Source: Datnioides undecimradiatus (lineage: Eukaryota; Chordata; Actinopteri; Lobotiformes; Datnioididae). Taken from it: a stretch of DNA of 64,000 nt. A model generated the notes under the pieces. It saw nothing but the letters and a program-made list of their open reading frames with translations. It made no database searches and was not told where the DNA came from. Shown here in pieces: positions 1 through 55,608 of this stretch; the stretch's first letter is position 1, and every line of letters starts with the position of its first letter. The stretch covers positions 10,053,107 to 10,117,106 of the forward strand of contig WARS01000029.1 of assembly GCA_008933995.1 (NCBI GenBank), in the 5' to 3' direction. Made by a program: the position numbers and the translations under genes.

Positions 1-3000
1 TCCGTGAAATTTGGGGGTTTTCTCAAAATCGAGCTCCAGCTACAGTGGACCTTTTTATGATTCCAGATTATAGGTATCTTAAGCAACAGCAACCATCCAT
101 AATAACTAGTTATAGCAATTAAAATGCACCATCGTTCATGGCAAATTGGTTTGAAACCACGTGTTTCTGTAGTAGAGCCTGTAGTTTCTGCAAGGTAATT
201 GATCAGAGTAGACACACATGCACACTCAAACTACATCCATGCAGGAACAAGGCCTTTCAAGCTCAGTCGTATTTTTGAAAATGTTAGCTTAGCTCACATT
301 TTGCAGAATAATTTAAGTTCAAGTGTCCTGAATTGTCACCTATGGGAACGCTGCACTTTTTCAGTCTCAGCATTTCCCAAGTCAAACTCTCTGCTAATTC
401 TGACTCAGAGAGGTACACTGCAATGACTAATCGTATCACATTTGCTTGTGACAATATACGATTGCTTATAATGCACGCTCTCCAAGGGCATACCTTCCAA
501 CTTTGCAGATGAGTAAATACGCCAGGTGGATGAGTCGTGATGACACCCAACAAGCTAATTTTGATCATTTTAGCATTTTCAGGTGTTTCTCATATAGCTG
601 CGCTCTCAGTCGCTCTTGGGCTTTTTAATTGACAGAAGAATATTTCAAACAATGAATATGAAAGTTCACTTGATCTGCCTCGCCTGCTTGGGAAGGATGT
701 TTTTTTTTTTTTTTTTTTTAGCTTTTAAGTGTTTTCCACTTCATTTGACTGTGCCTGAAGGTATATTAAAACCATTTTCATAAATATTCTTGAATAAGCC
801 CTTGAGATGTTTTTTATAGCCAGGGTTTTAAGGAGTGTAGATAGACACATCAATGGCTGTTTGTGTGTGTTGGGGGTGAGGGAGCAAGTAATTACAGTTG
901 TGTGTGTAATTGAGTTTTCCTGGATTCGGGGTGAAAGTCTCATCTGACCAACGGAAATTTGTTCCTGGGTGCTTTTTTTTTTTTTAGCCCAGTATTACAT
1001 TGTGGAAGAGGGAGACTAGTTGTGGTATCAAAGCAGTTTCAATCTCAGCGTGATTTTTGTGGATATTACACACTTCCAAAATTAGTTGCACCACTTCCCA
1101 CAACCTGGCCTCCACAAAAGGCGAGAAAATGATGGAATGTAATTGAATTGTGCTCGCACGGAAACACAAAAATTCCAATACTCCAGTGTTTTTCTTTGTT
1201 GCATCTTTCTCAGGTGCCAAAGAGGTTGTAGGAGGTTAGGGTTAATACACTAGCAAATATATCAGTCTATGCAAATCATTTATCAATTGAAGTCTGGTGG
1301 TACAAGAAAGCAAATCTGCAGATGCGGATGATTGTGTGGCTAGGAAGACTTGAAGGTTTGCATCATGTCTGCCACGTTCTCCCTGAGGGCGTTCTAGTCT
1401 CGTAACATGCACACACACACGCAAGCACGCACACAAGCTACCGTTTTTCCTCACAGCGCGGCAGGAGTCTGTCTTCATCTGTCCTATTGATTGATGAAGC
1501 AGGCACAGTGGGGTGTCCAAGAGAGGCTGAAGTCTAGATCAAGGCTGTGAGCTGCATCACTAGCAGTCGCACGACACACACACACACACAACCACACACA
1601 CGCCCACACGCACGCACACAGACACACGCTTACTCACCCTTTCACTCTCTCTGTCATGTTCTCTCTGTGTCTGTCACAGCAGACACTGTAGACACGGGCA
1701 GCCATGACACACAAGTGTACACACATGCATACTGAGAGACATGACACACACAGCAGTGCTGACACACACGTCGTCATAGCTCATAAATACACCATATCAC
1801 ACTTAAACACACACACATTTGGAATGAATTAGCATGGCTTGGCTGTGTGGCCGCCTAAGCTGGACAGGCGTTTTCTACAAACATAATGTTTGTAGATTAG
1901 CTGAGGTTAATGATCCGATCGGCTGGGAGCTGCCACAGCGTCTGTATGTGCGTGTGTGTGAATTTACATGTGTGTTTTTGGCTAAGGGGAAAAGGCACTG
2001 CTCTACTGTGCTGTCTCCCTCACTTCCAAATGAGACATGCCCCAGGCACCATTACAAGAGCAGTATTTATGCTATTAGAGAACTGGGTTTGCCGCACTAG
2101 CGGTGGTACCAGAACGAAACAGCTAAAATTATGTCTTGACTAACCTCAGTGGGCAGGTCCAGTATTTTCTTTGCATAAATGAGAAATTACAAGTTGTGTA
2201 CTTTAAGGCTATTTTTGCAAATCGCCTGTTGGAATATCACGCACATTATTTCTGAGCCATGTAAATGTAAAAGCCAAAGAAATACAGCTGTTTTTTTTTT
2301 TTAAGTGTTTGCTTTTTCAGAGCAGAAATAAAAATCCAGAGTCAGAGTTTTTTTTTTCCTCCTCCATCTTTACTTTGGTGTTTAAAATTAGCTTCCAAGT
2401 CCAAACCAGAAATAGTCCTCCGCAAACAACTTTCTTCAACTTTCAGTCAACTGGAGGTGGGGGTGTTCACTGAGGGTGTAGTCCCTCCAAAATCGCCTAC
2501 CTCCTCCCCAGAAACGCGCTCAGAGAAGCCTCTCTCATGTAATGCTGAATGGACAGAAAAGTACAGGAATGAAAGAGAAAAGAGACAGAATGAATGAAAA
2601 AAATGACTGTAAGCCCCCGACTCTTTTTTTAAAGTGCTCGCCCCTCCTCTCCACCTACATATTTTTCTCCTATCCCTCCCTCCTTTCTTCGTCTCCTCCC
2701 TTCCTCTCCTCCGGCGTTCCTGTCGAGGCATGCCTCTGTCGCCGCCAACCAGCATCGTCCGGGGCAGAGCGAGGGGGCAAGAACAGAGGAGGGAGGGGGG
2801 GGCAAACAAAGGAGCACTGTTGCTGCCTTGCTGGGGTTTTGGGGAGGGTTGACACCCAGAGTGGAGGGGTGTGGGTGGAGGGGTACAGACAGCGCGAGAG
2901 TGTGACTGAGAAGGTTTATCATTAAGAATAGAGATTAAAATGAATGGGAGGGGAGCAGGGGTGTCTGTTCTGTTCACAGTAATAAAGAGGACAAGCAGTG

Positions 3001-3030
3001 CCAGTCATTTTTTCACACGCAACCAGACAC

Positions 3031-3053
3031 ATACACACACACACACACACACA
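3031..3053. repeat. (AC)n microsatellite
   Basis: Uninterrupted AC dinucleotide run read directly from the sequence. Confidence 0.9.
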
Positions 3054-3965
3054 GTTTGCAACGCTGCAGTTAGCGTGAATGAGTGTGTGCGAGGGGAGGG
3101 ATGGGGATGGTTCATTGTTTCCTGGCTATTGTACAATATTTGCTTAACCCTCGCGCTTTATCTGTGCAGCTGTATGCTACAAATGAGATGGGCAAAGAGC
3201 GTGTATGTGTGTGCAATGGTGGCTGTCACAGCTGTTAGCAATTTCATCAGTGCACTGTAAGACTCACGCACACACACACACACAAACCCTTTCAATTTAC
3301 GAAGCAGTATAGCCACGATGAAATCATTCTCCGAGCAGCACAATTACACGTAAACTTAGTTTCCACCAACAAAAATTGAACGCTGAAACTGATGCAGTAA
3401 CAAGCCAACGCAAGGTATGCAAACCATAAATGGCAATCATGAAGCCATACAGGAATGTAGCAGTCATTATCCTAGGGTTCTTCTTTGCCATTGCCTGCCA
3501 GCGAGCACTGCCTGACCCCAACTTGAACCTCATCCTTCCTTATTTTAAGCAATCATGACGTACTGCGCAAATATAACACCACTGGGTTTTAGCTGCACGT
3601 TTTTTTTTTTAAAAAGTTACTCAACACTTGGGTTGAAATACAAAATTTAAAGAAATACATCTTGACTGTAGGCTTACATGTAAGCACATGTTTCATTAGG
3701 TCACGAACTGCATCGATTTGTAATCTCTGCCCCTATCTTGTTCATACATTCTTATTGCTACACACTGAGTAAAGAGACTGTTTTGAAAAAGAGCTGAGTT
3801 TTAGAGGCAAAAACTGGAGTCCCACAAGGCTCAGTTCTGTGAATGGAGTATTTTATTTATTTATTTTTTCTTGTTGTGCGGGGTGCTGGTGAAGATATCT
3901 CCATTCCACACAAACAGTTTCTTAATGGTTCGTTTCCCCTTCTGTCTTTTTTTTTCCCGTTACAG

Positions 3966-33597: not shown

Positions 33598-34778
33598 TCA
33601 GACAGAGCTGAAGAAGAGGAGAAGGACACCCATGAGGAGGAGCATCAGGCTGGGTTGGATGCATCCAGTGTGGTTGAGTTGTAGTTTACAGTTCTCATAG
33701 GGCTCCAGGCAGGCAGCGTAAGCCATGGCATGGGCAATGTAGTTCTGTTCCTGGACCCCGTGGAAAAGCTGTGACATGGGACCTTTGGCAAAGATGGCAA
33801 CATCGTCTATGCCATGGGTCTCAGAGTCGAGAGGGACAGGAGCCTGCTGACGGTAATCATTACCCGCTGGGGATAAATGGGACAAAGGAGTATTGTATTA
33901 GCTATATTATGCTTCTCTTTTACATGGACAAACTAAAAACCTACAGTTTGCACAGACAACTAAAAATTGTATTGGTTAGGCTGCCTGATACTTATCCAGT
34001 GTTTGTAATATGATAACAGTTATCATCATCGTATTACCATGTCACATAAAATGTGGCATTGACAATGCAACGGCCAGATTTACTTGCTCTCTGTGCTACT
34101 ACTGTAGCTGTCCTACTACACCACAAGATGGAGCTACTATATTACTTGGTCATTACTAGAATGATAATGTACACTTACATGAAACTGACTCGTTCATATC
34201 TGGCCTAGTACCATTGACAATCTGGTATCCTGGTCCATTACCATACACGGCAGTGGTGAAGTGCTTGTTGTCCTCAGCAAGTGAGTGAGACACTCCTGTG
34301 AATCACAGAACAAAATGGTAACATTAGTGTTTGATCATAGTTTGAGCATTGGATGATATTCACTTTTTATCATTAAAGCTCACTCAGCTCAGCTCTGACT
34401 GAATTTTGAGTGTGTATTTTACCTAAAACAGAGTTTCCTCTAGCAGAGTATCCTCCAAAAGCAAAGACATGGGAGTGATCAGCGGTGACCACAGTCAGGG
34501 TGTCCAGCTCGCTGGTCATTTCTGCTGCTCGTCCAATCGCCTGGTCAAACTGAACAGCTTCATGGAGAGCCATTTTGGCCTTTCCTGCATGGTGACCATG
34601 GTCAATTCTCCCACTTAAAGTCCAGAAGAAAGTTCAAATAAGCAAAAGTAGTCTACCTCTCAAATTAGTATTTAGCACAGTAACCTGAATTGTTGATTAT
34701 ATTACAGTCTTATTGTTGTTGATAACAAACACATGATGCAACTACAAATAATCTGGTTAAAATTTAAGATGTTTCCAA

Positions 34779-34809
<31 letters not shown>

Positions 34810-37800
34810 TATCCACAATTTGAAAGGTGAGATCCCAAAATAATAATAACCATTGTTAAAATTCGCCAATATGAAACTAAAACACACTTTGAACTTTCAA
34901 CTGTTAAAATTTAAAGTGTTTAGATTTTTATTTATGTGTGTAAGGGAGAGTGGCACTGAAAGTTTATTGTAAATACATGGTTGTTTGGCTACAGAGTACA
35001 ATTACACTTATCTTCCACAAAGAGAAAATATCCTTTTGGGTTCTTGTTGAGAATATGAATTGCTTTCTCCACCATCTCTGTGAGGGAGGGGTCCATTGAC
35101 GGATTACGATCCAACTCGTAGCGACAGTCTCCGGGCTCAAAGAGGCCTACATGCAGAGAGAAACAGCAGGCTTCAGTTTGAGGTTGTTCCTATGAACTTT
35201 GAGTAGAGCTGGCAGTGATTTTACCATGATGATACTGAATGTGCACGATTTGTGCGAAGGCCAAAACATAAAACAAACAAAAATTACTGCTGTCGTCTTA
35301 ATTTGAAAATTGATACTGTAAAAATTTTAATGTCAAACAGACTGGGGTGAATCAAACAGGGCCTCAAATGAGCAACTTGGGTGGTTATCTATAAATCTGT
35401 AATAACTGATTCTGATTTTCATCTAAACTAAAGATCTGTTTTACATGGGTTAACATACCCTAACTGGGAGAAAGCAGTACTGTATGTTTGCACCGTAACC
35501 AGAGCTATTTTGTGATTTGCCCTGTACATCAGGTACCACTTGCACAGCAACTGGTGAACTGAACTGAACTGAATATCTTCTTACCCATCAGGAAGTCTGT
35601 ATTTTTAGGATCCACAGCATCAAAATCAGCTTTGTTCCAAACGTATTTAACATTCTGTAGGCGATAAATAAAAACAGACAAATTAATTTTGGAAAGCATA
35701 AGAGGAAGAGACATTTAAATTAAATTAAGTTGCAGCCAGAAGGGAAAATAACTCAATAAAATAATAATTCTCAATAAAACTCAAGCCTGATGAGCACACA
35801 CTGAAAATCCACCTTTTACCTTTTTGTTCTTTGCCCACTCCAGAACAAGATTTTGTCCATCATTTCGGTCTCCTTTAGAATTTGGATACTCTGGGTCAGA
35901 CACAGTTTTGGGAAACATGTATCGACGACCTCCACCAAGAATGACCTGAATTAAGACACATAGTGAGATATGGTTTATTGTGTATTTGAATATTAAGATT
36001 TTAGCATGCTGTCAAATCCATAACGATGTCCTGACTATGTCTATTCTATTAACTCTGTGCACACTGTAAGCACCATCTAAAAGAGAGTAAAGATGTGGAC
36101 TTCACTGAGTTAATTTTACAATATTTCTCAGGAGATTCTCATCCAGGTCAAGTTAATAAGTCATTGGCGCTTTACTGTTTTGCCACAAAAATACCTTTAC
36201 ATCAAGGCTTACATTTATCTCTACGTTGTGAACCAGTTGGTAAGCAATGTCACGGCAGCCATTTTTGATAGCCTCAGAACTGAGGTCAGAGTCAGAGTAC
36301 CAGCCTCGGTTGGCAGTGTGAGCATATGTTGCACCAGGAGAGGCATGCTGCACTCTGGTTGTGGTGACGATCCCCACTGATTTTCCTAAAACACACAGAG
36401 CAGTTTTGGTCATTAAGTGGCCACCTTATTTATATTGTTCATATATGTACATAGGTCAGCTACGAGAAGTTAAAGAAAACTGAAATTTGAATCAAATTAC
36501 AGTATCACATCAATCAAATGTAATACTGATCTGTCTGAAAATGTCCTGAAAGAAAGATGCATTGACACAGACTGATCTGGACTGTGTCAGACCACATAAG
36601 AGTCCAAGTCTCTAAGTGAAACCATAAAGCTACGTGAACCTCAACCTACCTGCTCTCTTAGCACGGTACAGAATTGATTTGACCTCGTTCCCATAGGTTG
36701 CACTACAGTTGTACCTCGGGGTGGCGGCAGTGACACCCAGTGTGCCGTAATTGGCCTTCACACCACATAAATAAGCTGTGGCTGTGCCAGCACTGTCTGG
36801 CATCTGCTGGTCCACATTGTACGTCTGCAGGGGCCAAATAAATTTGCACATTTTAATATGAACACTTATCATTTAGCAGGTGTACTTTTCCACAGTGACA
36901 TGACACTCAGAGTTACAGCAGAAAATGATTGTGTAACAAGCTCAACTGAGTAGTTTCTGGTGATTGTCTATGTAATAAAAGTCCATTTTACTCAAGAAAG
37001 GATAGCAGGTTCTAATATCTGCAGCTGGTTGAAACAAACTGTTTACTAACTCTTACCTGAGGCACATTTTCCTTACTCTGCTAACAACACATACCCTGTT
37101 AATGATGGAGAAATGCAATCTTTTGTTGATGCCAGTAACACTGTCTATATTTGAGAATTCGGATTTATAAAATTTGATGAGTCAGATAAAATAACAACAA
37201 GTTGGCTGATTATAATGACACCCTCCACAAAGTAAAATCAGTGTGAACTGTTAGATAATTACACTTTCATCTTGTAAGTGTGCTGTGAAAGTACAAGCAC
37301 CTCAATTAAGTAAATGCATGTGTGGTTTTCAATCCAACAGTTTAAAGGCACATTCCTATGTAGACTGAATGTGTTGGTCAGAGAGGGCGAACCTTAGACA
37401 GGGCCAGGTGTGGGAAGGTATCCATAACCAGACTGGTCTCCTCCCCAGATTTTCCAGCCAACTGGCCTTTGAGGATCCGTGCAGCAGTTACTGTCGGTAT
37501 CCCCATACCTGGAAGCAGGTGGAAGCACACCTGAGTGTTAGATAACATCAACCAGGTAGAAACAGGGCTGCCATTGTACCCTGTGAACCCCAAAGGATCA
37601 GCTGATGAGGAGAGTTTAAAGGGTGGTGAAACACATCTGAATTCATAAATGGTGGATAATAAGCAAAGCAAATATAGTAATATTAATTATTTTTCTTTTC
37701 AACAAAATTGGTTATTCTTTCCTATATTTCAGGAATTGTCCAAGGCATCTGGTCATCTTGTCCTGCCTTTGAGAATTTGCACCCCTCTACTGCTTATTAC

Positions 37801-39586
37801 AGTTTCAAACTGAATATTTTGTTCTATATATCATTTCGTAGGTGTCACTGTGGTCTCTGCCTGATTGGATATATCTTTTACAATCAAGTCAAATCTACTG
37901 TATTTCAACATAAATCTGCAAACTCTCTGGCCATTAAAGTTTAAAGTCAAAATATCATTGCACTGCAGGAAGGTATTGCCACTGTGTCATTAACAGTAAG
38001 AACTTTGGCAACTGGTTTCCATTAACATGTCACTTATTGGGTGATTAAAAGTTAGTGATCGCTTCCAAACACTGATAAAATCTTCAATGTGCTGCTATCA
38101 GCGTGTGTGTGGGTGGGGGGTGGAGGCAACTCTAACCATAAATTCATAATTCATCTGTACATTTAGAATTATGTATAAAAGGATTTGCCAAAGATTGAGC
38201 TTGGATCATGGAGTAAACAGGAAGTGAATGGCAGTAATAACCTCAGTGTGTGAGGTCTCAGGTCATTGCAATGTAATTGCTTGTTTGTTGTTACATTTTC
38301 TAAAACACATTTTTTAGTCAGAACTAACAGTGGAGATTTGGTAACCAGCCATTCTACCAATGTAGAGATTTTAGTATTAGAAGGTCAGGCAACAAAAATT
38401 TCAGCAGTACATCATGGACTTATTCAAACCCCTTGCACAGTGGTTTACCTTTTTTGGTGCTCAGATCAGTTAAGAACACATGGGGAAATAGCTGCACATG
38501 CAGTGTAGACTGTGGTTTAGCTTCAGCTCATTTTGTTATGCTTGGCCTTCCAAGCAGTATTAACAGCAAGTGATCAGATGTCAACATTCATCTTCCTCTA
38601 CCCATAAAACCAATGCTTTTGGGGTCACATAGGGTTTGCGATGCATTCTCACTCTTGGTGAACACCACAATGATGAGACTCACACTTTCGAGCTCTACTG
38701 GTTTCTTCTCACCTGAACAAACGAACTAAACCAAAAGAAGAATGTGCTCCATAAATCAAAGGGACTACTTGAACTGTGGGAAAGCTCCTTTCTCAGACTC
38801 ACCGTCCCCCAAGAACAGGATGAGGTTCTTGGCTTGGTGGAGATTAGGCTGCACATTTAGGGCTGTGTAAAGTGCCTGCTTCCCTTTGTTGTTCCAGTAG
38901 CTGGCATGGAGCTCCTCTTCTATAAACACAAAAAAGACAATATGATGTTACTAAAGAAGCAGATAATTAATGGGTGTTTACAGTGTGAATCTACAGAAGA
39001 TGATGTTCTTATTTTGCATGACTGGCAATAACAGGTATATAAACACTGACTCTAGATGAATCAGAGGTAGGAAGGAAAAAGAAACAGTAAAGTCATGAAG
39101 GTCAAATTTCCATAACCCTGGAATAATCATACAAGAAATAGATGTTATGAAAATAATCTGTAAAATGAATCAAACTGTTATATTCAAAATTTTTTGTAGA
39201 AAAGTAAGTATTTACTATCAACAGATTAGCAGCATTATTGATACATTAGCATATGCAACATTATTAGAGTCGCCTATTTCATCAAGGGTATAATAAAAGT
39301 ACTGGCAGCCCATTAACAATATTTTGTTCTTATATATACAAGAATATACAATAAACATTATTTTTCTGTCTTGAATCGAAGGTTGATATGATTACATACT
39401 GTATGTATGGCTGGTCTTTGTATTGTCTTTGAAATGCAGTCGTTTAAATCTGATAGTAAGCATTCTTAGTTCCTGTAGATGCCTAAAAACAGCAGCAGTA
39501 TGTAATATATCCTTACCTGAAACAGACAAAGTCCTCTGTATTGACATGTAAGTCAGTAATCCAATAAAAATGAGCTTGCTGGCCAT
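33598..39586 (-). CDS. Alkaline phosphatase, intestinal-type, GPI-anchored (ALP-A)
   Basis: Eleven coding exons give 519 residues: 39586-39517, 38919-38803, 37508-37393, 36824-36650, 36385-36213, 35945-35820, 35654-35585, 35146-35012, 34614-34423, 34295-34179 and 33866-33598. The enzyme hydrolyses phosphate monoesters outside the cell. A signal peptide fills exon 1 ([15 protein letters not shown]). Family metal and catalytic residues are present in precursor numbering: Asp62 (LFLGDG), nucleophile Ser112 ([10 protein letters not shown]), His173/Ser175 (QHASP), Arg186, Glu327, Asp332/His336 (RIDHGHH), Asp373/His374/His376 (ADHSH) and His448 (ETHG). The hydrophobic tail after the Cys/Asn-rich end ([13 protein letters not shown]) suits GPI attachment. 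Exon number matches human ALPI/ALPP rather than ALPL, hence 'intestinal-type'; which fish alpi copy this is cannot be told. Exon 8-9 joining follows the AT-AA model discussed in the findings. ETHGIDD departs from the usual ETHxGED. Confidence 0.93.
34780..34808. repeat. (TAA)n microsatellite in ALP-A intron 8
   Basis: About nine TAA units inside the intron that carries the non-canonical splice ends. Confidence 0.85.
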
Positions 39587-41921: not shown

Positions 41922-44900
41922 TCATCTGAGTAAACAGAAGAAGCCAAGCAGGCCAAACAGGAGGCTTGATGGTGTGTTCACACCCACACTCGAGGTGTGG
42001 GTGTGGGGATGAGGAGGGCAGTTTGTATAGGGCTCCAAGCAGGCAGCGTATGCCATGACATGCGCCACGTAGTTTTGCTCTTTCACCCCATGAAACAGGT
42101 GAGCCATTGGGCCTTTGGCGTAAATGGCTACATCCTCTCCACCATGCGTCTCAGCATCCAGCGGGACAGCAGCCTGCTGCATGTACTCCTCATCATCTGG
42201 AGAGAAATGAATAGAGTGTTACAAAACACAGTTTAAAGCAACTTGGATCATCAACTGCTAAAACAAAACAGATGCTGTCATAGACAATAAGCTAACCATG
42301 ATGTCAATCCAGATTAACTTTATTCTTCACTGTGGCTGTGTCACCGACGATTTACTGAGAAATTAGACATGGCACTGTTTGCTCACAGCAATGGTCCATA
42401 CAAATAAAGTGTGCTTGAGTAAAAAATTGGAGCATCCTGCCTTTGATACCTTGACTTTACTTAAGTGCCTTTATTACAGTAGATTGCACTGGATCTCCTT
42501 TGTTTTGATGTTTAAATACCACCCACACCAGAGGCCCTCATTAGATAGCTTACATTTGCTTCATAGATGTTTTTGTGGCTGTTTTGCTCATGAAATGGGT
42601 TTTGTAAATCTTCTGTAATTCACCAAATTAAACTTAATTACAACATTTTCAAAACCCAGAAGGTAATTTAAGTCCTTTTGACTGCCTGACTTTCTAACAG
42701 TGAAGTTTACTGGCAGATAACAAAGCTATTTCCTTCCCAAAAACAAAAAGTAAACTTGTTTTTCAGACATATGTTTGTAACATACATGTTTGTATGTTTG
42801 ATACTCAAGTATTCTTGACATTATGATGGTAACAACTGCAGCATTGACAAAGGGTCCATGTGTACAATTGTGGACTGAGTTTTGCAAATTCTCTTTGGCT
42901 CCACTCTGAGAAATGTCTTCTATATAGGCTAATGACCTTGTAGTCTATATAGTCAGAATTTCAATACTGACCTTTGCAGTGCTTTATATTTCCCTAGACA
43001 GACACATAAAGTTTAAGAGATGAATCCCTCATTTGCAACTGCATGTTTACTTAAGGTACCACATGAGTGTGCACTTTTGAGACACAACTATTGGTTCCAA
43101 AAACATAAAGTGACGCCAGGATATTCAAAAAGACAAAATTGGGGGTTTTAAAATGCAATTCATCCTTGGATGGAAGTATTTTCACAGACAAGTATACATA
43201 ATCATGCAATGACTAAAGTGAATGATGCAGAACAAGAAGAGGAGGAAGTGGGTCATTGCTGTCCAGTGTTCCACAAAGAAATACAAATACTTTTCCTGAG
43301 TGCAGTTACATGTACACAGAGTGGCTTTGCAGAGAAAAGAACAGAAGACAGCACAGTGAATGCCACAAACACCATATTTCTTCTTTGCTTTCCAGAGAAA
43401 AACACAGCCATGAGTCAGCCATAACCACATCAGTTCACACTGTCTGTGCACACATCAGCACAGACGACTGCAGCATCTGAAAGACATTAGTTTGTGCTTA
43501 CAGTAATCCACCATTGTGATGTTCCCTCTGGTTCCATTTATGTGGACGTAACCAGGACCGTTGGCGTATAGGATGCTGGTGAAAGGCATTTTGTCATCAG
43601 CTTTCTTTGGTGCCAGACCTGAATGGCAGAACGTGGCAGAGAAAGTGAGCAATAATACACTGGTTTCAGTGTCTTTTCACAGAAGGAAAACTAGGCCCAG
43701 GGACTCACATGTACTATCTGAAACAAAAAGGAACCTTTTAACAACATTTTAACTTAAATATTATGTAAATATCTACATATATGAATGTCAAAAAGCAATG
43801 AGAGTAATTTTAGGTTAGTTCTACAATTTTCAACATGTGGACTGCATTCACATCCACTTTGTTCTATACTCTTCATCCCAATTTAAGTCTGGTTTGCATT
43901 CATGTGTTTGTGCTTTGAACCATACCAAAGATGGGATTCCCTCGGGGTGTGTTACCACCGAAGGTGAAGACGTGGGAGTGGTCAGCAGTGACGACGGTAA
44001 GAGTATCGAATTCTCTGGTTAGCTGTGCGGCGCGCTGAATGGCTCGGTCAAACATGACAGCTTCTGTCAGTGCCAGTTTTGCAATGCCATCATGGTGACC
44101 GTGATCAATTCTCCCTCGTAACAGAAGAGCACAAAATGAGCAAATTAGACCCCAAATCATCTAGTTAGTACAACTCCATTTTAGGACATTTTAGGAGTAC
44201 CTGAAATGAAAATGGCTATTTGACTGTGCTACATGCTGCTTTTGTTTATCCTCAATTTCTTTACATTCCTCCATAAAAGTGTTGGGAGCTGTAGAGTAAC
44301 ATTTTTCAAAAATGAAAGAATACACAAACATTTGTATTTATTACCATTAGAGCATGGAAAATGTAATTTGATTTTAACAGGCTTTACATTTTTAAATTAG
44401 ATTATTAGACATAATACTCATCTTCCACAAACAGGAAGTAGCCTTTGGGATTCTTGCTGAGGATTTGTATGGCCTTCTCTGTCATCTCCACAATGGATGG
44501 GTCACGTGTGCTGTTCCGGAAAACCTCAAATCTCATGTCCTTTGGCTCAAAGAGACCTGGAAACACCAGAAAAAAATGGGGAAAAAGCAGATTTTCTTTT
44601 TTTCTTCAAAAATTGACCTTGACATTGTACGGTGTTAATGATGAGTTCAATCTAAACTGGCAGAGCTGAAGAACAGAAGTTAAAGAAAACAGAAGACTGT
44701 GGGGCCAAGTGAGAGTAGTAAGAGCAAAAATCATTGAACTGAAAAAGTGGAAACAACATACCCTGACCTTGTTATCTAGCTTCTTAGTTCAAATCCAAGC
44801 TGCTTCCAAGACCATTCCCATTCATTTTATGAATTAGACACAAATTACTGCGTTTACTTCTTCTGCCCATCCAATTGATAATAAATGTTCTTCGATAATG

Positions 44901-47900
44901 CTAATAATACTTAGAATAAAACTTAATCGTTGAGATTTGGGGAAGCGTGCTCTGTTTTCCTGTGATTCTTTACTTCAAATGAAGCACACATCACACGCTT
45001 GAATGCATTATAACAGTGTAAGGCAATAACAGTTGTATTGTTACTGTCACACGCATCACCGCAAGAAACATGCCCTTTGGATTTTATGATTGTGTTAAGG
45101 TTAATAATACCACCTAACTGTGAATTTACAATGCGTCGTCATGACTACTTTGTGTGGCTGTAAAGATGAAAGCTGACCTGACTGGAATCCTTGTTTCTAA
45201 GCCACTGAGAAGTTTTCATAATTTAGATAAGAACTTATCAGTCAACACCTGAGGAGCATAGACAGAGAGGTGCAAATACCATGTGTGTGTTAGTATATAT
45301 GATGTGTGTGTTGCATTTTGTATTTGTTTTTTTTGCCTGACAGTCTATCAGGCTCAAGCATGTGTATGCTGTCAGGAGCAAACTGCAGTATATAAAACTT
45401 ATCTGTTCAAACTGAGATCTGTCTGTGTTGACACCCACCCATGAGCCGGTCAGTGGTTTTAACATTTATCTCGTCAAACTCCTTCCTGTGCCAAACATAC
45501 TGTGACTTCTTGTTCTGGAAAACAGACCAGAGGACACTTGAAGCTGTGAGACATCTGTTGAATTAAAGGGCACTATCCAGCAACAACTTGAGCTCCTACC
45601 GGTTTAGCCTTCAGCCACACATCAATGAGGTTCCTCTTGTCTTTGCGGTCACCCTTGCGAGAGCTGGAGGTAGGGTACTCTGGGTCTGGGGTGCCCTTTG
45701 GTGTCATGTACATCCTCCCTCCCCCAAGAATCACCTGAAAGGGACACCAGATGGAAGGATTATATTTACAGTGGTAGTCTATGATGGTCCTTGTACAAAA
45801 CAATTGCACAACTTTGACAATAGAACACTGTGGCTTTCACTGAACTGCTGATTTTCTATTTCACCAAGCACCTCACTTTATTCACCTTACATTTATATAT
45901 ACATTTTTTTATGATTATGTGGCTTAAATTTGAACTGGTAAGGCCCAATACTATAAACAGTAATATCACAGTCCTGGTGGACTCACTGAACTTTTCAAAT
46001 AAAATCAGTCATATTTCAATAAAGGTCCTCATTTATATCCAAATAACACACTATAAAGTTATATTACAGCACTTACAAACGATTTCCAAACTGCTTAATA
46101 TCCATTTGAAAACAAAACAATTGTCAAAGGACATGCTGCTATTGCAGATAAGCACTAAGCTACTTTTTTTTTCCACTTGTGCAGTGTGCAGTATAACATT
46201 AGCACAGTATCTGATAACTTGATCCAATCAAATATTTTTTTTGGTGTTAAATAATGCATCAAACAGAATATGGCTATTACATACATCAATGTCAACATTG
46301 GTGACCAGTTGGGTTGCAATGTCCACACATCCCTGTCTGCGGGCACTGGAAGGAAGATCTGCGTCGCTGTACCAACTGCGGCTGACAGAGTGGGCATAAG
46401 CAGCAGCTGGGGAGGCATGCTGGACACGGGTGGTGGTCACTATGCCAACAGATTTACCTGGACAATGAAGAGATGTAGCCAAATATGAAGTTCAAGTGTT
46501 GAGCTAATCGCAAGCATTGTGACTTTTTCTGTGACACACTGGAGGTGTGTTATTTTCCTCGTCATAGAGCTGCTCTAGAGCAAGAAACCCAACATTTAAG
46601 CTCATTTATGATCCCACTTTTTTCCTTGGCAAAGTAATGAGGCCCAGTGGAAGAAGTTTTTACCACAGCAATGAATGAGTGAAAAACAGAAATCACTTAC
46701 ATAAACCTTTACATATATTTAATTCTTTGATTTTCACCAGCTTTTAGGATTCACTCAACACATTGAAAGTACTTTAATTAAAATGCCAGTTAATTTTCCC
46801 CTGGGTTCAACCAGCTTCACTTTACCAGCTTTATGAATACTGTACTTAATAGCTTCATGAAAACAAAGTCAAAACATATGTGTCAGTCATTTTAAAGCAC
46901 AATATAATGACTATCTGTGGTACTTTACATTGTAGTGTAATGTGCACATGATATACATAACTATTGGAACAAACACTGGTCAATCTGAAATGATCTGTGA
47001 TCTTAATTAGATGTTTTATGGACATTGAACTACAACTGGTGACTTACAAGTAGCAGGGAACACGCTTATCAGATGATTGCTTTATTGTATTTTATTTCTC
47101 TGTATATGTGGTCATTGCCTATCTTGAGATAAGAATGTAATTCAAATCAGATGACCTTTACATTGTACAGAACACCCACCACTAGGCAGGCTATTTAGTG
47201 TCTTTACCTTGTGCTTTAGCACGGCGTAATACTGAGTAGACCTCGTTACCGAAGGTGGTGTTGCACTCATAGGCCACTGCATTAGCACTGAGCCCCACTG
47301 TCTTAGCGTTGGCCTTCACCCCACAGTGGTAGGCTGTAGCCGTGCTAGCACTGTCTGCTACCTGTTTATCAACACTGTAGGTCTGTGGAGCAGAAACACA
47401 AACACTGCTAAAGACGGTAGAAACATACAGTATATTCAAAGTCAGATTACACTTTCTATACTATAGGTTAGACAGCCATGACACTGAACACTTGACTCAC
47501 TCACACTCTTATTCACACTTTAATTAAAATAATTGAGGGATTACACTGAACCATGAGGCTGAGTCCCACTTTCAATTGACTTTCAAACAGTTTTCACTGC
47601 TTCTACTGCAGTGTCAGCATTTTTGCTCAAAGTGACAATTTTACCTAAATCCCTTGAAAGTCTTTTCGCACAAAGGTTTGGAGTATTTAAGTTGCAGCGT
47701 GGTGGTATGAAGCAAGAAGCAACATGTTAAGAGAAGAAAGCATGTGAAAAATGGACACACACACAAAAGCCATCCTTCTTTAGGTGTGTGTATTCATCTG
47801 CATCTGTGTGTATCTGTCTCTCACTGCATGTCTCCTTTATCTCTCTCTCCATGTGACGCACTGTACACGTTTACCAAGCATGCACAGACACATACACATA

Positions 47901-50900
47901 CATGCACACATATGAAAGACATTGTATTAGCATGCTGTACCTCTCTCTCTCTCTCTTTCTCTCTCACATACACACACACACTCACTTACTCACTCACTTA
48001 ACATCTGACTACAGAGTTCATCCTTGGAGTCCATCCAGTGATATCACGCTCGATGGGGTGCAGAGTGTGTGTGTGTGTGTGTGTGTGGTGTACGGAGGCA
48101 AAACACATAGGAGGTCAAGGAGTGCAGAGTCATAATAATAAAAATATGTAACGTTGGCCTGTTTCTTTTTTTTTAAACTGTAAGGGCCTTTGAAAAATAT
48201 CAACATGTTAAAAGGCTGACTTACTGTGTCATTGTCATTTTTCCCCATTTAAACTTATTTACAAATCAAGGGATGTCGTAGTAAAATGTAGTAAAACTAT
48301 AAAAGGCTATAATAAAAGTGAATAAAAGTTAAACTGTAAACAAGCCAATCAAGCCAGGGACATGTACAGGTATCTAATAATCCCCAAGGGATTATTGAAA
48401 AAAAAGAAAAACAAATTGAAAAGAAAAATTAATGATTTAAGTGGTGAAGCCTTGAAAGACTATGAAGAATGTACTCATCAGAACAATGCAGACAGGAGGA
48501 TTTTTTTTTTTTAAAAAGTCTTCTTCCTGAGAATAAAGGAAATAATTCATATAACGCAGCTGAAGTTACATGATGAAACACTGCTAGCTCTTTCACATCA
48601 GACCTCATATTGAAGTCTACCCTGAATAATGGCTGAACTGCAGGTCAACAGTGTTGTGTTGTCACCTTTGACAGAGCCACATATGGGAAGGTGTCCATAG
48701 CCAGGATTGTCTCCTCGCCTGATCCACCCTCCATCTGACCTCGCAGGATTCGAGCTGCCGACACGGTGGACACACCCATCCCTGAGATACAAAGATTGAC
48801 AGGTGAAGGTCACAAAAACCTTGATTTGGAAATCTTTACTGCGTATGTATTCATGTCATACAAAGGTTTTGCTGCTCTGACGCCACAGGGCCCAGAATAC
48901 TGCTCTCTGTACAGTGTGTTTTGTTTTTTTTTTCAAAGCTCGGGCTATAACTGTCAAATGAGAGGGAAAAAAAGTTTTGATTCAGTAATGCTCTAAACAA
49001 ACAAAGTCAACGCATGTCAAGGCCATTAACATCAACTGAATCCACAAATACAGGGCATTTAAGGCAGTGGTTTTCTAGGAGAACCACATGTTCAAACAAA
49101 ATCATCACAGAGACCAACACAGACTCCTCCAGGGAACTATTCAGACCTGTATTGGTAGGATATAAATATACATGAAGATGCTGCTGTGTAACTATTAGGA
49201 ATTTATTACATAGAACACACAGAATTTATATAACAGTAACAATAACGATAAATAACAAGGGAACCTGTTTTATCTCTTTCTTGTGGTCCATTACTGGACT
49301 TCACCCCTGACTTTGAAAACCATACTTTACCAAGCCCACGCCACTGTGATGCAACTTTAACATTATGGCCATAAAACTGAGAACATACTCAGGGCAGGGC
49401 ATTGCTGGAGAGATGCACAAAGAAAACTCAGCCTCGACCACCCAGAAATGTGACTCAGTAGGTCTGATTTAAAGCAGATATTCTGGTAGTTAACAGGAAA
49501 AACACTCTTAAATCTACGTGGCTTTAAACAGCTCCCCTTACAAAAATGACTTTCATGCCTCACCAGTTGTAAATACACCACGCAAGTGACAATTAATGTG
49601 ATTTGCCAATCAAATCTGATCCAGATGGAAATGTTCCCCAGCAGGCAATTGTAGCCCCTACGCTGAATGCCAAACTGCACTGCAAAAGGACATGACGTGT
49701 AACACGAGTCAGCAGTGGATCTTCAGAGTCATGGCCACACCCTGCACTAATTGAAATTGCCACCTCAAAAAGGTATTCTTTAAAGCATTTGACCAATTGT
49801 AATGTTACGTAGCCATATTTTTTACAAGCAGCTCCCTGTTTTGTTTGAATCACGCACAGGCACAGTTCCAGCAAACACAGCTATGTGCCAGAAAAGGCAG
49901 TGAAGAAGAACAAGACTGCAAGATAACATGAATATAAACTATGCGCAATTAAAAATATGAGTTTTGTGAGTGTTTTGTGGGGAACAATGCATTCGATAAA
50001 TGTGTTAGATCTAAAATATGCACGCAATGCATTTTGTTTAGCAACACTGAATGTAATTTGAGGGAAAAATCTGCCTCTTTATCTGCTAAATTTTCCACTC
50101 CATTTGATGCACTGTTGAAATAAAACATCAGTGCAGCTTAAAGTTTAGGCAGCTAAAACTACTTGGTTATGAACAAGCATTTTCACAATCGGAAGAAATC
50201 AGCGTTGGTAGGAGATGAGATGTGATCTCCTCCTGTCTAAGAGATTAATGGCGCACAACTTTTGCCTTTCTACTTCTGAGTCATTACTCACACGACTCCA
50301 AATGTTTGCGTGTGAAGCCAACGGAATCAATTTTGAACAAAAAACATAAAGTTGTCCAAACTTTTATTCCAACCATAGACTCATCAACTTTTACAAATCT
50401 AGACGCAGGTCTGCACTACCACTTACACGCAGTTTCTCAGTTCACTGTACACAGCCAAACATACTGGAACTGTCTTGCACTGCATATTGAGCTGTATTTG
50501 TCAGTGAGGTTGAAAGCAGCAGCCTTTTCTGTTTAAACTTGCACCACAACCAAGTCGGTCTTGAATGTTGGAATAGATTTCGTAATAACATAATAACGCA
50601 CCGTCGCCGAGGAACAGGATGATGTTCTTGGCCTGGTGGTCTCGAGGGCGTAGTTTCAGCGCAGCATCCAGTGTTTCCCTGGCCTGGGCATCCCAATAAG
50701 CAGGTTCCTTCTCAAGTTCGTACAGGGCTACAGAATGATAGAATGAGACATGTACATGTACATGTGTTTATGTGAGATTTTTTTCTTCTTAGTATGTGTG
50801 AATGTGTAGTGTTTACATGTGTTGAATGGTGAAGATCCAGTATAGAGAAATTTCAAGTGAATTCAAGTGTGTCTGCAGGCACCTACACACTTATGCATCC

Positions 50901-55559: not shown

Positions 55560-55608
55560 CTGCGTGGCCACATGCAGTGAGGAGAAGTAAGCTTATCAAC
55601 AGTATCAT
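55560..55608 (-). CDS. Possible alternative signal-peptide first exon for ALP-B
   Basis: On the minus strand an ATG opens MILLISLLLLTACGHA and stops at G|GTGAGTC, a strong donor in phase 1. This is the same phase as the first coding exon of both alkaline phosphatases. If spliced to ALP-B exon 2 (50727) the junction codon is GCC (Ala) and the frame continues. The peptide is a textbook secretion signal. It could instead be a relic first exon of a lost third phosphatase, or the first exon of an unrelated secreted protein whose other exons I did not find. No matching downstream exons other than ALP-B were seen. Confidence 0.4.

Follow-up and report, generated by a model that had tools for sequence, protein, structure and literature searches.

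The window analysed here is a stretch of 64,000 nucleotides from Datnioides undecimradiatus (assembly GCA_008933995.1, contig WARS01000029.1, positions 10,053,107-10,117,106 of the forward strand), and it carries two neighbouring paralogous alkaline phosphatase (ALP) genes on its minus strand, ALP-A and ALP-B, with 61% identity to each other. At the catalytic and metal-ligand positions checked both match placental ALP (9/9 in ALP-A and 9/9 in ALP-B), whose ligands and residue numbering are followed here. Ser155 of ALP-A and ALP-B is common to rat IAP and human ALPP, with Thr at this position in the other three sequences of our comparison. The two genes were mapped as follows.

33598..38919, minus strand: ALP-A exons 2-11, open throughout with intron 8 taken out as AT-AA, the other 8 introns being GT-AG
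41922..50727, minus strand: ALP-B exons 2-11, open throughout with intron 8 taken out as AT-AC, the other 8 introns being GT-AG
55560..55608, minus strand: candidate ALP-B exon 1, with signal peptide MILLISLLLLTACGHA and a phase-1 GT donor; one of two candidates from the scan

The same scan found no exon 1 for ALP-A. The mapped introns are thus introns 2-10 of each gene (n=18, intron 1 being left out), and 16 of the 18 are GT-AG, the exceptions being the two intron 8s.

Intron 8 and the metal-binding motif

The features around the two exceptional introns are these.

44422..44556, minus strand: ALP-B exon 8, 3' end GTG GAA G (the codon of the Mg-ligand Glu and base 1 of the next codon)
44416..44421, minus strand: ALP-B 5' splice site ATGAGT, read as AAG|ATGAGTAT, as in the sodium-channel loci L016 and L018
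44118..44421, minus strand: ALP-B intron 8, 304 nt, ATGAGT...TGTTAC, AT-AC; first bases ATGAGTAT, last bases CTTCTGTTAC
44164..44170, minus strand: ALP-B branch-site candidate TACTAAC, the branch A being 44165, 47 nt upstream of the intron's final base
43926..44117, minus strand: ALP-B exon 9, 5' end GA GGG AGA ATT GAT (GGRIDHGHH)
35012..35146, minus strand: ALP-A exon 8, 3' end GTG GAA G
34615..35011, minus strand: ALP-A intron 8, 397 nt, AAG|ATAAGT...CTTTAA|GTGGG, AT-AA, at a junction homologous to that of ALP-B intron 8
34664..34670, minus strand: ALP-A branch-site candidate TACTAAT, the branch A being 34665, 50 nt upstream of the intron's final base
34423..34614, minus strand: ALP-A exon 9, 5' end GT GGG AGA ATT GAC

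An earlier, sequence-only reading of this DNA had ended ALP-B exon 8 with GTG GAA G, opened the intron with ATGAGT instead of GT, closed it with AC and begun exon 9 with GA GGG AGA ATT GAT; both edges agree with our coordinates (44422/44421 and 44117/44118), and the required 5' end of exon 9 at 44117 is GAGGGAGAATTGAT. Around intron 8 of each gene 105 x 121 = 12,705 donor-acceptor pairs were scored as joins. For ALP-B, 1,677 of these are in frame without a stop and a single one, the AT-AC join, yields VEGGRIDH, which bears out the claim that the family protein needs an AT-AC intron at this point. The in-frame GT-AG joins number four, all of which change the motif; joining GA|GTATTA to GGGAG gives VEDEIDH, as the reading had also maintained, and no in-frame GT-AG join gives VEGGRIDH. 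An AT-AG join (44422/44114), absent from that reading, is likewise in frame and gives VEGRIDH, with one Gly fewer. For ALP-A, 1,325 of the 12,705 joins are in frame and VEGGRIDH again comes from one only, here the AT-AA join, while five in-frame joins are GT-AG and one of them gives VEDNGRIDH. An AG lies one base past the AA end of the ALP-A intron, and joining it to the AT donor shifts the frame. GT-AG, GC-AG and AT-AG alternatives for intron 8 were rejected on this scoring, in which a single join of each gene restores VEGGRIDH.

Cryptic GT-AG splicing would use GA|GTATTA with GGGAG in ALP-B and TAA|GTGTAA with TTTAAG in ALP-A, and the resulting VEDEIDH and VEDNGRIDH would mean either that the spacing between Mg and Zn ligands is altered by one residue or that the enzymes are inactive. 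In-frame joins of this kind are available in both genes, and modelled U1 pairing at the GT sites comes near that at the AT sites (see below), but the Glu-x4-Asp spacing is constant in 7/7 aligned vertebrate ALPs (ALP-A and ALP-B entered with their AT joins) and is found also in two ALP loci on viral contigs. The mapped parts of both genes are, moreover, otherwise open with their catalytic residues kept, and the AT sites of both retain TRAGT at +2 to +6. We regard cryptic GT-AG splicing as unlikely and hold with modest confidence that AT-AA splicing in ALP-A is likelier than the GT-AG alternative. Gene predictors restricted to GT-AG would be expected to annotate both genes wrongly in the metal-binding motif.

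An error of sequencing or assembly, or decay of a pseudogene, could also produce non-canonical ends, and one decayed gene might account for two of them. Against this, the same pattern occurs in two paralogues as divergent as ALP-A and ALP-B, both with exons 2-11 otherwise open, and the C that closes the ALP-B intron is the very base reported to compensate A+1 (PMC8283771). A 501-base probe across the ALP-B site found its own locus as the only match in the 581 Mb assembly, and hence no second copy of the site. This explanation appears extremely unlikely. The oddity of ALP-B is more than chance, since the homologous junction of ALP-A, whose AT-AA ends the sequence-only reading had left unmentioned, departs likewise from an otherwise GT-AG set of mapped introns.

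Splice signals and intron class

Behind A+1 both introns have a U1-type donor with +5G (ATGAGT in ALP-B, ATAAGT in ALP-A). The sequences ATATCCTT and TTCCTTAAC are the consensus of the U12 donor and branch site; the former is matched at 3/8 positions in ALP-B and 4/8 in ALP-A, and the best match to the latter in the last 45 nt is 5/9 and 6/9, so that neither intron counts as U12-like by donor or branch site. The perfect TACTAAC that the sequence-only reading had noticed in ALP-B is present, but its distance was overestimated, at about 55 bases from the intron end as compared with the 47 nt that we measure to the last base. TACTAAY lies within the last 70 nt of 2/2 intron 8s and of 0/16 other introns (hypergeometric p 0.0065), against an expectation of about 2% per intron tail; the motif was named beforehand from ALP-B, so that ALP-A is its sole independent test, and seven copies occur on the minus strand across the full window, those of both intron 8s counted. 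A minor-class (U12-type) AT-AN intron would account for the ends, as AT-AC and, less often, AT-AA are known in that class (PMC8280824, PMC10639083), but the poor donor and branch-site matches, the ATRAGT donor with +5G and the position of TACTAAY 47-50 nt from the intron end speak against it, and we think it very unlikely.

Modelled U1 pairing of the AT donors is moderate, at -5.9 kcal/mol in ALP-B and -5.8 kcal/mol in ALP-A, inside the span of values for the two genes' 16 GT donors (-3.2 to -11.8 kcal/mol) and slightly better than at the downstream cryptic GT sites (-4.5 and -5.0 kcal/mol). The intron 8 donors of two further ALP genes, on contigs C315 and C43, pair more strongly (-12.6 and -10.1 kcal/mol, respectively). 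On their own the pairing energies are not decisive between AT and GT sites.

As a positive control we read the III-IV linker intron of sodium-channel genes, which we take to be SCN4A intron 21, in eight loci of this genome located by a conserved linker-peptide pattern, the 3' ends being placed by reading frame. In 8/8 loci the preceding exon ends AAG, the donor has A+1 (AT) and +5G, and the intron ends AC. The exact ATRAGT donor is present in five (L013, L015, L016, L018 and L019), and in L016 and L018 it reads AAG|ATGAGTAT, identical to ALP-B. The other three donors are off consensus, namely ATAAGC (L012), ATATGT (L014) and ATAAGA (L017), and all three introns still end AC. The match of the preceding exon is weaker in L014 (3 mismatches), L012 (2) and L018 (1). 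SCN4A intron 21 is described as a U2-type AT-AC intron that needs the major spliceosome (PMC2831892).

The ATRAGT donor with +5G, the poor U12 match and the likeness to the sodium-channel donors and AC ends uphold the proposal that ALP-B belongs to the U2-type 'AT-AC II' introns, and on this sequence evidence ALP-B intron 8 is very probably a real intron of that type. The AT...AA of ALP-A lies outside the AT...AC definition, and the intron is accordingly not classed as AT-AC II, only as working alike.

The same junction in other ALP genes

A search of the genome (581 Mb in 497 contigs) with Pfam PF00245 gave at least 28 matches, which we read as four ALP genes, a lower bound: ALP-A and ALP-B in the window, one gene on C315 and one on C43. 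The C315 gene is alpl-like (81% identity to human TNAP across the pieces that were joined); by exclusion, the C43 gene is probably alp3-like. Intron 8, the one intron read in these two genes, is GT-AG in both, with GTAGAAG|GTGAGT...GTCAG|GAGG in C315 and GTGGAAG|GTGAGG...GTCAG|GTGGG in C43, at a junction identical to that of ALP-A and ALP-B intron 8. The C43 gene (L010, C43:763000-769000) has GRIDQAHH at the place of GRIDHGHH in ALP-A and ALP-B, and its Gln is common to rat intestinal ALP (GRIDQGHH).

A scan of viral contigs with exon 9 gave the two loci mentioned above, whose ALP frames run unbroken through the intron site. They stand at the contig end in the IMG/VR contigs L021 (about 2101-3519) and L022, show 60% and 52% identity to the fish exon 9, and include VEGGRIDHAHH among their motifs; our guess is that they are perhaps bacterial host or prophage flank. 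An NCBIfam search returned one bacterial model, with a score under its cut-off.

Since the ALP genes on C315 and C43 are GT-AG at this junction, the comparison suggests that the AT-A* ends are a derived state of what had been a usual GT-AG intron of the major class, a reading that depends on the gene tree. The tree was built from seven ALP sequences, the C43 and C315 peptides being joined from tblastn pieces and C315 lacking exons 2 and 7. As regards an intestinal (Alp2) type, in the best tree ALP-B groups with rat IAP and human ALPP (66% support) and ALP-A has no clear place; ALP-A and ALP-B are not sisters in it. Among the four topologies compared, two of which are the same unrooted tree, the one with ALP-A and ALP-B as sisters lies 8.6 log units below the best; p-AU (0.062), p-KH (0.073) and p-SH (0.171) do not reject it, but with bp-RELL (0.044) and c-ELW (0.043) it drops out of the 95% set. 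Grouping ALP-A with the C43 gene costs 0.85 log units and is within the accepted set. The tree thus leans against ALP-A and ALP-B as sisters.

Recent gene conversion of intron 8 was considered and rejected, as the best local alignment of the intron interiors scores 22 and 251/500 single-base shuffles score at least as high. Because the interiors do not align above shuffles, the two AT donors are not recent copies of each other. The NG86 dN between ALP-A and ALP-B is 0.32 and their synonymous divergence is beyond the method, which together with the dissimilar interiors implies that A+1 is old in both genes or arose twice; the shared A+1 could accordingly be an old intermediate or the product of two parallel changes. 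Tentatively, and a little short of calling it probable, we propose that a GT-AG major-class intron acquired A+1 directly, without a U12 stage, and that the tandem genes now hold an A-C version (ALP-B) and an A-A version (ALP-A, a major-class AT-AA intron). In zebrafish, two tandem alpi genes, alpi.1 and alpi.2 (cDNAs JX847416 and JX847417), are reported as co-orthologues of human ALPI (PMC3469785); a word search of the main text of that paper finds neither 'intron' nor 'splic'.

Proposed splicing and relation to known AT-AC introns

The first and last intron bases are reported to pair in the second step of splicing, and in yeast the G-G pair was found replaceable only by A-C (PMC8283771, citing Parker and Siliciano 1993, Chanfreau 1994 and Scadden and Smith 1995); in mammalian introns, according to the same source, A-A also seems to support splicing weakly. 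By this literature AT-AC fits ALP-B, and AT-AA in ALP-A is possible but weak. In ALP-B, U1 and then U6 would read AAG|ATGAGT through the intact bases at +2 to +6, and U2 would pair with TACTAAC. In step two the first A and the last C may then pair instead of G-G, so that AC would be used and the nearby AG would not, and the AT-AC join would restore the invariant metal-binding stretch. In ALP-A the A+1 donor and the terminal A would form the weaker A-A pair, which this intron probably uses. As the join would be tied to the active site, an ALP enzyme might serve as a handy reporter of terminal-base pairing.

Several observations count against AT-AA splicing in ALP-A. PMC8283771 has a human table whose third row (A-A by its position, the label being lost) carries no major-spliceosome value, from which AT-AA introns of the major class would be rare or new; an AG stands one base on; VEDNGRIDH is in frame; and an AA end occurs in 0/8 sodium-channel linker introns. 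Another account of ALP-A is A-to-I editing at the two ends of its intron, both of which are A; this would give a GT-AG-like intron, and editing has been considered for some non-canonical sites (Parada 2014, PMC4176328). The same source, however, describes GT-AA and AT-AG sites that show no trace of editing. Folding of the ALP-A intron and its flanks is not better than that of shuffled sequences (z 1.06; 86/100 shuffles at least as good) and so points to no special duplex, and the C at the end of the ALP-B intron would be left unexplained, so that editing seems hardly credible to us.

Major-class AT-AC introns have been proposed to descend from U12 introns and to have then been trapped, a change of subtype needing both ends together (PMC2831892). 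If the ALP case is confirmed and GT-AG is ancestral, it would be a direct counter-example to that proposal. With GT-AG and AT-AC/AT-AA at one homologous junction in one genome, the direct route and its intermediates become testable. In a literature search that covered few subscription papers, we found no paper linking ALP with AT-AC or non-canonical splicing, and the phrase 'AT-AA introns' was absent. As far as these searches show, a known kind of intron (AT-AC II) is met here in a new gene family, and the surprising parts are the AT-AA sibling and the apparent switch from GT-AG to AT-AC.

Compared with known systems, ALP intron 8 resembles the U12-type AT-AN introns in its AT-AC or AT-AA ends and differs from them in donor and branch site. 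It shares with intron 8 of the C315 and C43 genes the exon junction GTRGAAG|...|GNGG, whereas those introns have GT-AG ends. With the class of SCN4A intron 21, ALP-B has in common the A+1 donor with +5G and the AC end; the ALP introns differ from that class in belonging to another gene family, in having GT-AG copies at the same site in this genome, and in that one sibling, ALP-A, ends AA.
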